From assembly GCA_028690055.1 (NCBI GenBank), contig JAQVBZ010000015.1:1-42275 (forward strand): a DNA stretch of 42,275 bases. The letters run 5' to 3'. This document shows, in pieces, positions 1,286 through 11,599 of this stretch. Below the pieces are notes generated by a model, which was given only the letters and a program-made list of their open reading frames with translations, was not told the origin of the DNA and made no database searches. How positions within the stretch are numbered: position 1 is the stretch's first letter; each line of letters starts with the position of its first letter. Source of the stretch: Minisyncoccota bacterium (GTDB lineage: Bacteria; Patescibacteriota; Minisyncoccia; JAHIHE01; JAGLIN01). Position numbers and translations under genes: made by a program.

Positions 1286-1344
1286 TTTTCTGTTCCCGGG
1301 ATGCGTATCTCGGCTGATGAGCTCAAAAGAGCGAAAACAGAAAA
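1286..1344 (+). ncRNA. Hammerhead self-cleaving ribozyme (open stem III)
   Basis: All core parts are present in order. Stem III 5' strand TTTTCTGTT (1286-1294). Cleavage-site nucleotide C17 at 1295. Stem I CCGGGAT (1296-1302), loop GCGT, ATCTCGG (1307-1313). Core CTGATGA (1314-1320). Stem II GCTC (1321-1324), loop AAAA, GAGC (1329-1332). Core GAA (1333-1335). Stem III 3' strand AACAGAAAA (1336-1344). All stems pair without mismatch (one G-U), including G10.1-C11.1 and A15.1-U16.1. Cleavage is predicted between 1295 and 1296. Both ends lie in stem III. It sits where the other units carry the repeated fold. Activity is inferred, not shown. Confidence 0.88.
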
Positions 1345-4059: not shown

Positions 4060-4131
4060 TTTCCAAGTCTATAAAAATGTTTTGTAGATTTAGAAAAGCC
4101 TTCAAGGTTAAAAAGATTTTGAAGACTGGAA
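4060..4131 (+). ncRNA. Repeated three-way-junction RNA, copy 4
   Basis: P1 TTCCA (4061-4065) with TGGAA (4127-4131). P2 is AAGTCTATAAA (4065-4075) with TTTGTAGATTT (4081-4091); relative to copies 1-3, positions 4, 5, 6 and 8 change on both strands and stay paired. AGAAA follows. P3 is AGCCTTCAAGGTT (4097-4109) with GATTTTGAAGACT (4115-4127); the usual G-G mismatch is a C-G pair here. This is the most informative copy for covariation. Confidence 0.78.
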
Positions 4132-4173
4132 TGCACTTTGAAATATATGATTCTTATTACTTTCTTCTTACTC

Positions 4174-4228
4174 ATTTTTGACGTTTTATATATTTATAAA
4201 TTTTGTAGATATATTTAACGTCAAAAAT
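4174..4228 (+). promoter_or_regulatory. Long 5' hairpin upstream of radical SAM gene
   Basis: ATTTTTGACG... (4174-4193) pairs with ...CGTCAAAAAT (4209-4228) over about 18 of 20 positions. The RBS AAGGAG (4232-4237) and the TTG start at 4245 follow. Confidence 0.55.
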
Positions 4229-4244
4229 AAAAAGGAGAATAAAA

Positions 4245-5045
4245 TTGGACAACAAAAAATTGGTTCGGTTCCTGCCTTTCAAGGGGCAGGTTGCTGGAGA
4301 AAGAAGGAAGCTCTATTTCTATAGAGCTTTTGGAATGGAAGTTCTATACACCCGGATTTTTTCTTTCGGGGCTTGCAATTTTGCCTGCCCTTACTGTAAG
4401 AGAGATGGGCAGTTTAGAACTGCTGAAGGGAATATTGTCACCTCCCAAGATTTTGAGATGGGGGTTGTGCTGACAGCCGTAAAGACTGCTATTGAAGCTG
4501 GGGAAGTTGTAAGACTTTCCGGTGGAGATCCTGTGGTTTTTCCGGAAGAAAGTTTGCAAATTGCAGAATTTGCAAGGACTCTAGGGGCAAAAATATCCAT
4601 CGCTCACAATGGATCGTCTCCGGAATTTTGCAGAAAAATGGCCCCATACCTGGAGTCGGCTGCAATCGATTTGAAGGCTCTGCCGCAGAATTTCAATACT
4701 GTGGCTGGGCTTAAAAATGGGACGGGAGCCAAGATGTTTGAAAGGAGTCTGCAATCACAGACAATCCTTTCAAATATCGGAGTATTGGTTGATGTCCGAA
4801 CTCCCATCTTTGGAACTACAACTCTAGATGATTTTCTGGAGTTGGCCGAATGCATAGTGAAGTCCGGGAATATCCAAAATAAGTTCTGGACTCTAAGACT
4901 TTATAACCCGGTAAACGGGTGTGAGTTTACCGCTCCTCGAAAGGATACGGTAATCTGGATGATCGGGGAAATCAAAAAGGTTTACCCCGAGCTGAAAATG
5001 GGTCTTCGCGCGAAATGGGACCCGAAAAGATTTCTGTATTTTTAA
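4245..5045 (+). CDS. Radical SAM protein (activase-like)
   Basis: A 266-residue enzyme of the radical SAM superfamily, which splits S-adenosylmethionine at a [4Fe-4S] cluster to make a 5'-deoxyadenosyl radical. The cluster-binding CxxxCxxC is C44, C48, C51 (GACNFACPYCKRDG), and the SAM-contact motif LSGGDP lies at 91-96. Further matches to glycyl-radical/anaerobic reductase activases are the HNGSSPEF and AIDLKAL stretches near 120-150. The length is near that of activases with an incomplete TIM barrel. I see no glycyl-radical partner in the window, so the substrate is unknown. The start is TTG with AAGGAG eight nucleotides upstream. The SAVED-like membrane protein starts 12 nt after its stop, so they form an operon. 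Confidence 0.82.
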   Translation: MDNKKLVRFLPFKGQVAGERRKLYFYRAFGMEVLYTRIFSFGACNFACPYCKRDGQFRTAEGNIVTSQDFEMGVVLTAVKTAIEAGEVVRLSGGDPVVFPEESLQIAEFARTLGAKISIAHNGSSPEFCRKMAPYLESAAIDLKALPQNFNTVAGLKNGTGAKMFERSLQSQTILSNIGVLVDVRTPIFGTTTLDDFLELAECIVKSGNIQNKFWTLRLYNPVNGCEFTAPRKDTVIWMIGEIKKVYPELKMGLRAKWDPKRFLYF

Positions 5046-5056
5046 GAGGTGAGGAA

Positions 5057-5548
5057 GTGGATTTATCTATCGTTCATTCTATTCCAACGGCCTGGGGTTA
5101 TCTCGAGCCGTTCGTGCAGCTTCTAGCTCTTCTTGTTTATTTAAAATATGTTTATCTAAAGAGAAGAGCTGAGAAACGCAGGTATATAAACAGCAATGGA
5201 CAAGATTTTGTCCTTGCTGTCGAGGTTGGCGGAAGACCTATCTCGGAGGCGGTTAAGTCCCAGTTCGGAGAGCTTGATTGTCTTATAAGCGCTCAGGCGT
5301 TAGTTGGTAAAACTACGCTTGAGGATGATAAGGACTATAAGAAGATTGCAGCAGAGGTCTACAAGGCCATAAGCTGCAATCAGAATTGTAAAGTCCGTTT
5401 AATTTTATCCGGCCCTATTGCCCTTTCGGCAATAATCGGCCGGATGATAGGCTACCACAGTTTCGATGTGACGGTCTATCAGTTCGATCCCTCTCAAGGA
5501 GGGTACTACCCGGTTCCAACACCGGATAGAAGTTGGTTCGGGGTTTGA
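5057..5548 (+). CDS. Membrane-anchored SAVED-like sensor protein
   Basis: A 163-residue protein. The GTG at 5057 is chosen because AAGAGG lies seven nucleotides upstream; a longer frame from 5015 would overlap the radical SAM gene. One membrane segment (about residues 14-34) is followed by basic residues (KRRAEKRR), suggesting a cytoplasmic C-terminal domain. That domain ends with VRLILSGPIALSAIIGRMIG, then VTVYQFDP and GYYPV, which resembles the end of SAVED domains. These domains bind cyclic oligonucleotides in CBASS and related antiphage systems. No nucleotidyltransferase or effector is visible nearby. The fold assignment is my reading; role in defence is inference. A terminator overlaps the stop codon. 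Confidence 0.6.
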   Translation: MDLSIVHSIPTAWGYLEPFVQLLALLVYLKYVYLKRRAEKRRYINSNGQDFVLAVEVGGRPISEAVKSQFGELDCLISAQALVGKTTLEDDKDYKKIAAEVYKAISCNQNCKVRLILSGPIALSAIIGRMIGYHSFDVTVYQFDPSQGGYYPVPTPDRSWFGV

Positions 5549-5575
5549 TGTACAGTTCATATATCAAACCTTTTT
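5542..5575 (+). terminator. Rho-independent terminator overlapping stop codon
   Basis: GGTTTGAT (5542-5549) pairs with ATCAAACC (5563-5570) and is followed at once by TTTTT. The TGA stop lies inside the left arm. The T-run is also the start of RNA-fold copy 5. Confidence 0.65.
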
Positions 5576-5647
5576 CTAAGCTTATAAATATTTTACAGGT
5601 TTAGAAAAGCTTTGAAGATTCAAAATAAATCTTGAAGGCTGGTAAAA
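5571..5647 (+). ncRNA. Repeated three-way-junction RNA, copy 5
   Basis: P2 is AAGCTTATAAA (5578-5588) with TTTACAGGTTT (5592-5602), keeping the A-C mismatch seen in copies 1 and 3. AGAAA follows. P3 is AGCTTTGAAGATT (5608-5620) with AATCTTGAAGGCT (5628-5640). P1 is TTTTT with AAAAA. Confidence 0.72.
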
Positions 5648-5695
5648 ATAGTACATTGAAAAAGATAATTCATATTTATCTCCTTTGCATATTCG

Positions 5696-5759
5696 TTGTA
5701 GCTATAATTAATAATTTGATTATAAAGATTTGTGGTTAGTTTATTGATTATAGTTATAA
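5696..5759 (+). promoter_or_regulatory. Long 5' hairpin upstream of RBS
   Basis: TTGTAGCTATAATTAATAA (5696-5714) pairs with TTATTGATTATAGTTATAA (5741-5759), about 17 of 19 positions including G-U. AGGAGG (5762-5767) and the ATG at 5775 follow. Confidence 0.58.
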
Positions 5760-5774
5760 ATAGGAGGTAAGGAA

Positions 5775-6053: not shown

Positions 6054-6057
6054 TTAA

Positions 6058-6126
6058 ATCTAAGTCTATAAAATTAAATTTGTAGATTTAGAAAAGCTTT
6101 GAAAATCAAAAGATTTTGAAGGCTGG
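6058..6126 (+). ncRNA. Repeated three-way-junction RNA, copy 6
   Basis: P2 is AAGTCTATAAA (6062-6072) with TTTGTAGATTT (6079-6089), the same covariant form as copy 4. AGAAA follows (6090-6094). P3 is AGCTTTGAAAATC (6095-6107) with GATTTTGAAGGCT (6112-6124). The following linker (AAAATGTTCATTGAAAAAGG) is almost identical to the linker after the hammerhead ribozyme at 1347-1369. Confidence 0.74.
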
Positions 6127-6176
6127 TTCGAAAATGTTCATTGAAAAAGGGAGAAAATAAATTATGAAAAATAGTT

Positions 6177-6235
6177 GTTTTGTGGCGCTTGATTATATCT
6201 TTATATTTTTAGAGTTATAATTGAGCGTCGCAAAG
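6177..6235 (+). promoter_or_regulatory. Leader hairpin of paralogue 2
   Basis: TTTTGTGGCGCTTGATTATA pairs with TTATAATTGAGCGTCGCAAA. The lower stem equals that of the leader at 1396-1454; the upper stem has changed from GC-rich to AT-rich on both sides and still pairs. The downstream GAATCTTTTTTCG and TCAGAC/GTCTGA hairpins are also conserved. Confidence 0.65.
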
Positions 6236-6343
6236 CAAAGAGACTTCTTTGAGCCTTGTGCCGGAATCTTTTTTCGACAAACTTTGCGGCTACTCGAAAA
6301 TATTTCAGACGGAGAGTCCTGTCTGATGATGGAGAAATATACT

Positions 6344-6720
6344 TTGACGGTAAGAAAATTTTAAAAATTTTCGGGAAAAAATTTGTCCCGATGGAAAAGA
6401 ACGATGGCAGCAGGAATACATTTGCTGTTATTGAAACAGATAACGAAGATTCCATGCAAGGCGGAGTTCGTCCTCCTGCTGAAATGGGAGAATTTGTAAT
6501 CGGAAGGGGTAGAAGCTTTCCTAGAATAGGAGAGCAAGTCGTTGGAGTGGGGAGTAAATACAGCCCCTTTTACTGGAGAGAGAGTGTGAGGATAGAAGAG
6601 GGCGAAGTGTTTACAGAAGAATTCTGTAGGCACACTATTGAAGAAATCGCCGCTTCGATGGGAATCGTGCATAAGGTATACAATTCCTGTTATGAAAATG
6701 GCGAAGCCCCTGATGATTAA
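6344..6720 (+). CDS. Hypothetical protein, paralogue 2 (frameshift near start)
   Basis: The paralogue of the protein at 1563, about 60-70% identical by eye through the shared segments (GKKFVPMEKNDGSRN, AEMGEFVIGRGRSFP, FYWRE, VFTEEFC). By alignment with paralogue 1, the start should be the TTG at 6344 (GGAG at 6331-6334). That frame hits a stop (TAA, 6362-6364) because the AT-rich stretch 6354-6370 is one nucleotide shorter than in paralogue 1; the conserved frame is open upstream through the leader but has no good start near the RBS. So the gene is frameshifted, uses slippage or an unusual start, or the sequence has an error. The tail NGEAPDD differs from paralogue 1. Confidence 0.6.
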
Positions 6721-6764: not shown

Positions 6765-6840
6765 TTTCCAAACTCATAAATATATTTGCGGGTTTAGAGA
6801 AGCCTTGAAGATTCGGGATAAATTTTGAAGGCTCTGGAAA
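6765..6840 (+). ncRNA. Repeated three-way-junction RNA, copy 7
   Basis: P1 TTTCCA (6765-6770) with TGGAAA (6835-6840). P2 is AAACTCATAAA (6770-6780) with TTTGCGGGTTT (6785-6795); position 3 is now an A-U instead of G-U. AGAGA follows. P3 is AGCCTTGAAGATT (6801-6813) with AATTTTGAAGGCT (6821-6833). Confidence 0.75.
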
Positions 6841-6902
6841 ATGTTCTTTCAAAAATAATTAAAACAAAAAATGCGCGCGGACTGAAGTCCGCTACTCCAA
6901 AA

Positions 6903-7442: not shown

Positions 7443-7513
7443 TTTCCAAGCTTACAAATTATCATTTGCGAGCTTAGAAAAGCCTTGAATTTTTATGAAT
7501 TAAAGGCTCGGCT
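7443..7513 (+). ncRNA. Repeated three-way-junction RNA, copy 8
   Basis: P2 is AAGCTTACAAA (7448-7458) with TTTGCGAGCTT (7465-7475); position 3 is now G-C and position 5 U-A, both compensated. AGAAA follows. P3 is shortened: AGCCTTGAATT with AATTAAAGGCT, a G-A mismatch replacing G-G. P1 is poor. The next bases include TTGACA (7516-7521), a possible -35 box. Confidence 0.68.
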
Positions 7514-7563
7514 CGTTGACAATTAAAGTTTATGTAAAATTTTATTCTACTTGTATGTTTTCG

Positions 7564-7606
7564 GTATAGGAATATGGCCACAAGATTTGCGGTCGTGTTC
7601 CTATAC
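7564..7606 (+). promoter_or_regulatory. Long 5' hairpin upstream of helicase gene
   Basis: GTATAGGAATATGGCC (7564-7579) pairs with GGTCGTGTTCCTATAC (7591-7606) over 16 positions, all Watson-Crick or G-U. GGAGG (7621-7625) and the start at 7630 follow. Confidence 0.62.
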
Positions 7607-7629
7607 AAGAAAATATATATGGAGGAATA

Positions 7630-11468: not shown

Positions 11469-11549
11469 TTTTCCAAGTCTATAAAAAATGATTTTGTAGA
11501 TTTAGAAAAGTCTTGAAGATCCAAAACAGATTTTGAAGGCTGGTGAAAA
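11469..11549 (+). ncRNA. Repeated three-way-junction RNA, copy 9
   Basis: P2 is AAGTCTATAAA (11475-11485) with TTTGTAGATTT (11493-11503), the form of copies 4 and 6. AGAAA follows. P3 is AGTCTTGAAGATC (11509-11521) with GATTTTGAAGGCT (11529-11541). P1 is TTTTC with GAAAA. It is the last copy seen; none occur after 12 kb. Confidence 0.74.
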
Positions 11550-11599
11550 ACAAAAAACAAAAAATGTACATTGAAAGATAATTAATATCCTTATTCTCT

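Follow-up and report, generated by a model that had tools for sequence, protein, structure and literature searches.

A predicted type III hammerhead ribozyme precedes a boxA-like site and shares its leader slot with a two-hairpin element in a Patescibacteria gene array

The window analysed here, a whole stretch of 42,275 nucleotides from a Minisyncoccota bacterium (contig JAQVBZ010000015.1), begins inside a gene array, so that the promoter of the array is out of view. Near its left end, an acetyltransferase gene is followed after an 18-nt gap by a predicted hammerhead ribozyme, as an earlier note made from the sequence alone had described. The next real gene, which that note missed, probably starts at 1563 and not near 1381, where a candidate short protein was rejected on account of a frame broken in the copy at 6164. 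Equally missed was a boxA-like motif 9 nt after stem III of the ribozyme. The region contains the following features:

818 to 1267, + strand: upstream gene, GNAT acetyltransferase, 149 aa (PF00583, E=3.9e-12)
1286 to 1344, + strand: predicted type III hammerhead ribozyme, from its sequence, its MFE fold, covariance model R1 and the covariation of 54 relatives
1345 to 1412, + strand: leader segment, 94% identical to 6127-6194, the identity falling to 23% directly left of 1345
1354 to 1364, + strand: boxA-like motif, GTTCATTGAAA, of a kind enriched beside relatives of the hammerhead
1400 to 1452, + strand: long imperfect 5′-leader hairpin, GGCGCTTGATTGCG / CGCGGTTGAGCGTC, whose copy at 6182-6234 differs by paired changes
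1563 to 1937, + strand: downstream gene, 124 aa, family unknown, with a paralogue near 6334-6720

Reading the hammerhead base by base placed the 9 bp of stem III, including U16.1-A15.1, between 1286-1294 (TTTTCTGTT) and 1336-1344 (AACAGAAAA), with C17 at position 1295, followed by a 7-bp stem I (1296-1313, CCGGGAT-GCGT-ATCTCGG), the core CTGATGA (1314-1320), a 4-bp stem II (1321-1332, GCTC-AAAA-GAGC) and the core GAA (1333-1335). Every required core position listed in the earlier note is present, the type III core (CUGAUGA...GAA, A15.1-U16.1, H17 not G) being found at 1314-1320, 1333-1336, U1294 and C1295. The three stems of 7, 4 and 9 bp also pair as it claimed, with stem III as the open one, both in the MFE structure and in the covariation of relatives, and the hammerhead structure is exactly the MFE and the centroid fold. 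Fold energy alone proves little, as its z against shuffles is only −1.65. A Markov sequence of 60 Mb with the dinucleotide composition of the window contained a single, much weaker chance match at loose stems (II 7, I 4, III 4 bp) and no match once stems of at least 4/6/6 were required; with G-U pairs allowed, the window hammerhead counts as 4/8/9 in this test.

A search for relatives with a pattern of the core plus stem II returned 80 genome-contig stretches, mostly from Patescibacteria, and most of the copies found fold as type III hammerheads that share the stem I loop GUGU and the stem II loop RAAA. Across 54 aligned copies, standard pairs fill 97.1% of the pair cells, a figure biased for stem II, which was part of the pattern, while stems I and III lay outside it but had to show some pairing in the scan that selected the rows; none of 500 shuffles was as good. 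Changes on both sides occurred in 14 of the 16 pairs, and sliding the strands destroyed the pairing. The covariance model R1 was built from these 54 copies, and in the window it scored the hammerhead, itself one of the 54, at 71.3 bits against 12.7 for the next hit, with no other strong match. The whole host assembly (1.46 Mb, encoding both NusB and RNase III) likewise gave one strong match, the window copy. At the level of sequence, the analysis confirms that a complete type III hammerhead lies between two bacterial genes and would cut at 1295/1296. The earlier note had proposed a hammerhead with this cut, and its sequence, its fold, the chance test, the covariation and the conserved intergenic placement on the sense strand all speak for it. 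The note's further claim, that the ribozyme core would stay folded at the 5′ end of the downstream mRNA, is a prediction from the type III topology.

The earlier note had also named a search with Rfam models as a check, with a low score to count against a hammerhead. At the gathering score, Rfam gave no match for the window hammerhead: the best score was 20.7 bits for HH9 (RF02275) against a cut-off of 52, and the type III family RF00008 reached 14 bits against 48.5, so that neither family claims it, even though core and topology are the same in both and HH9 shares the CUGAUGA-GCUC...GAGC-GAAA half. Scores as low as the note envisaged were indeed obtained, but read in its way they would wrongly reject the hammerhead. 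Eight loci with more than 20 intact copies between them yielded 0 hammerheads with Rfam at the gathering score; because Rfam misses all clear relatives too, a low score is not evidence against a hammerhead, and the sub-threshold scores reflect the reach of the models and not the biochemical definition of the ribozyme.

R1 matched about 30 of the 384 genomes sampled from the window's class at E<1e-6 and 32 of the 380 sampled from the phylum at E<=1e-4, a frequency of about 8% in both samples, usually with one or a few hammerheads per genome. Since a related locus (L072, the same as L252) is Candidatus Nomurabacteria by protein identity, this class is probably the one to which Nomurabacteria belong, the Paceibacteria of the Patescibacteria/CPR. 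The sampled genomes of the host's own family gave only weak matches or none, which marks the hammerhead as an accessory element, and a DNA search of its region in 54 related genomes returned only weak matches outside the window. The literature searched, with incomplete coverage, mentioned neither hammerheads in Patescibacteria nor a connection between hammerheads and boxA, and the set is widespread and apparently unreported. On viral contigs (L132, L133, L143, L145 and others), several type I hammerheads each were seen, with recurring stems GGCTAA...TTAGTC; those of L132, the one viral contig tested, were missed by Rfam at the gathering score. A hammerhead whose core reads CCGATGA (U4 to C) was observed at L312:1552 (− strand), immediately 5′ of GATCTTTGAAAA.

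The hammerheads are mostly intergenic and on the coding strand, commonly 7-124 nt 5′ of the next start codon, the nearest gene having the same strand in 69 of 99 cases downstream and 70 of 98 upstream. Neighbouring genes vary across contigs and include a DinG-like helicase (L056, L073), receiver-like proteins and many small unknown proteins; an order of AAA/guanylate-kinase-like gene, hammerhead and Nudix gene is kept in four contigs (L083 and L098 by Pfam, L089 and L093 by reading). Arrays also occur: L127 holds three hammerheads with single genes between them, and L056 about ten, most of them in non-coding stretches and without a boxA-like motif, alternating with another hairpin element. The latter, CTTAAGT... 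GCAGTGCTTTCGAAAGAGAGTGCTG, was noted at L056:2400-6740 with odd linkers around one DinG-like helicase gene.

The slot occupied by the hammerhead at 1286 is filled by a different element in the paralogous leader at 6057-6194, a third point missed by the earlier note. This element, here termed E, is about 71 nt long and consists of two hairpins, with nine copies in the island of the window, all on the + strand:

394 to 464, + strand: E copy, boxA-like motif at 472
2010 to 2080, + strand: E copy, boxA-like motif at 2108
2703 to 2773, + strand: E copy, boxA-like motif at 2782
4060 to 4129, + strand: E copy, boxA-like motif at 4133
5573 to 5642, + strand: E copy, boxA-like motif at 5651
6057 to 6126, + strand: E in the slot of the hammerhead at 1286, then GTTCATTGAAA at 6136
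6765 to 6835, + strand: E copy, boxA-like motif at 6843
7443 to 7510, + strand: E copy, boxA-like motif at 7511
11470 to 11543, + strand: E copy, boxA-like motif at 11566

Alignment of the leader copies at 1345 and 6127 revealed that the hammerhead is exchanged for E to the base, the left flanks being unrelated (23%). A boxA-like motif lies 0-27 nt after each of the nine E copies, so that all ten slots, hammerhead and E together, carry it, and the four strict GWWCWTTGAAA sites of the window all follow the hammerhead or E. As the G-U wobbles of E lie on the + strand, its folded strand is the sense strand; an assignment as an integron attC was rejected, given the two hairpins with G-U on the sense strand in place of a single attC-like hairpin. 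E with boxA-like motifs also occurs in relatives of the same family and order, and is tied to order-level relatives only. No named Rfam family was found for the hammerhead or E at gathering and E-value thresholds. Besides E and the motif, several array genes have a further hairpin, long, imperfect and A/T-rich, immediately 5′ of the RBS (531-601, 2140-2215, 4170-4235, 5694-5762 and 7556-7612). Within the same E/hammerhead array lie two defence-like genes at 4245-5548: the first is a radical-SAM gene matching viperin-like proteins (pVip, E=9e-11), and it runs into the start of the second, which encodes a SAVED domain (SAVED4, E=4e-17).

Beyond the window, reading of the flanks found the class motif G(T/A)TCTTTGA directly 3′ of many hammerhead copies. 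Among 30 hammerheads of the class found with R1, 16 have a looser motif within 40 nt downstream (1.2 in shuffled sequence, 0 upstream and 0 far away), as do only 3 of 25 in the rest of the phylum outside the class. Of the 120 copies in the larger, pattern-selected set, 21 have the strict motif within 60 nt downstream; it was seen 0 times upstream and once further downstream, and shuffling gave 0.14. A clear boxA-like motif is missing from about half of the hammerheads in the class and from almost all those outside it, and among hammerheads on phage contigs, which served as the control set for the partnership, it stands beside 0 of 177. Six contigs (L072, L103, L106, L111, L123 and L265) have the order promoter, boxA, gene, hammerhead, gene, in which the boxA-like motif that opens the gene row lies 7-22 nt downstream of a sigma-70-like promoter, the gene before the hammerhead not being called in L111. 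A second, clear boxA match follows the hammerhead in L072, L106, L111 and L265, and degenerate forms only in L103 and L123. Where the motif occurs without a hammerhead, a strong hairpin (z<−2) precedes it in 59% of cases versus 21% at random (p=3e-4), and hammerheads and hairpin-boxA leaders share a contig in L076, L130, L081, L055 and L100. A recurring hairpin, CTTTATC-stem-GTAGAGA, was seen immediately 5′ of the motif in several different Patescibacteria, at L076:4600-4680, L130:919 (− strand) and L321:588 (− strand).

The published boxA consensus is GYTCTTTAANA (PMC5725501), a gamma-proteobacterial one, from which the window motif GTTCATTGAAA departs twice (A for T, G for A) and to which the class motif is closer. 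Best matches to the boxA-like motif reach p<=0.03 in only 3 of 11 rRNA leaders of relatives, a suggestive but partial agreement; a 16S gene was not found in the host genome. The motif also resembles the rRNA boxA of Bacillus. A −35 promoter box was rejected by eye, with no −10 at the right distance. With NusB and RNase III also encoded in the genome, the identification as boxA is well motivated, not proven.

In the part of the work of Perreault et al. (2011, PMC3088659) drawn on here, tandem gene-flanking bacterial hammerheads cut in vitro, and one array also in E. coli, and bacterial and prophage hammerheads are suggested to divide long transcripts into mRNAs the length of one gene or one operon. 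Those clusters, as that part describes them, share with ours the intergenic position on the sense strand, sometimes several copies per locus, and inconstant neighbours. It names prophages and does not mention boxA, whereas the present hammerheads lie on Patescibacteria chromosomes, are often followed by a boxA-like motif and can be replaced by another hairpin element. Like rRNA-type boxA leaders and the boxA of suhB mRNA (PMC5725501), the present leaders have a GYTCTTTAANA-like site near the 5′ end of the transcript; their putative boxA differs in standing ahead of genes for accessory proteins and behind a ribozyme predicted to cut itself. Gene-flanking bacterial hammerheads were already known (Perreault 2011), and the boxA partnership and the swap with E appear to be new.

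In plain intercistronic processing, an idea already put forward for prophage gene clusters, the hammerhead splits a polycistronic mRNA into separate mRNAs, and TTCTTTGA has nothing to do with it, being some other leader signal, for instance part of a site for ribosomes or a protein. This reading agrees with the same gene-flanking placement in many bacteria and phages and with the roughly half of class copies that lack the motif. It fits poorly with a motif that stands a short way behind hammerheads, promoters, E and other hairpins alike and is similar to the boxA consensus, and we consider it unlikely. That the sequence is an inactive look-alike or a chance match is hardly credible: the low Rfam scores and the modest fold z would allow it, against a near-zero chance expectation, a complete core and relatives with compensatory changes.

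That the hammerhead merely travels with a mobile element or the remains of a phage and has no role in the host could explain the patchy occurrence, with one copy in the host genome and no strong match in the sampled genomes of its family, as well as the abundance of hammerheads in phage contigs. We judge this improbable, since none of the ten neighbours tested is a phage hallmark gene, covariation and an intact core persist across the phylum, the kinase-hammerhead-Nudix order is kept in four contigs, and phage-contig copies are without the boxA partner. Still less probable is the production of circular RNA: each unit freed between tandem hammerheads with the same stem III (CTGT/ACAG) would be closed by religation between the 5′ core and the 3′ tail it carries, yielding circular mRNAs or circles of non-coding RNA. 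Stem III does match within the arrays of L056, L127 and L076, those of L056 being non-coding, which speaks for it, while the host genome has one hammerhead only and, in the part of the published work drawn on here, one test detected no circle (PMC3088659).

Taking these observations together, we favour, as a reading more likely right than wrong though far from certain, a functional type III hammerhead that cleaves a polycistronic transcript inside an antitermination-type leader, with hammerhead or E plus boxA punctuating long transcripts. The ribozyme would cut after C1295, leaving a 2′,3′-cyclic phosphate on the released upstream acetyltransferase RNA and a downstream RNA that begins with a 5′-OH and the folded stems I and II. 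The boxA-like site is predicted to load NusB/S10 on the polymerase for read-through of the next stretch. E, as a pair of long hairpins in the same slot elsewhere in the island, could be cut by RNase III, which is a guess, and the two elements would act as interchangeable punctuation before each boxA. The outcome would be separate single-gene mRNAs from one long antiterminated transcript; we infer cleavage in the cell, NusB binding, RNase III cutting of E and an effect on expression. In rRNA operons, RNase III stalks and boxA combine processing with antitermination, and here, as there, a boxA-like site comes again after the presumed processing site.

More tentatively, and with some doubt, Patescibacteria may run rRNA-like antiterminated operons of accessory genes, with a cutting element, the hammerhead or interchangeably E, before each internal boxA; E would then perhaps be a protein-cut or itself self-cutting hairpin element. 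If true, a self-cleaving ribozyme would be a regular part of a processive antitermination leader, the first such system known to us, and E a candidate new ribozyme or RNase site. The role of bacterial hammerheads has been an open question since their discovery (PMC6155905). The recurrent boxA-like partnership offers a concrete, testable reason for their position and ties them to the control of transcription elongation, within a large hammerhead set missed by current RNA libraries in one of the least understood groups of bacteria.
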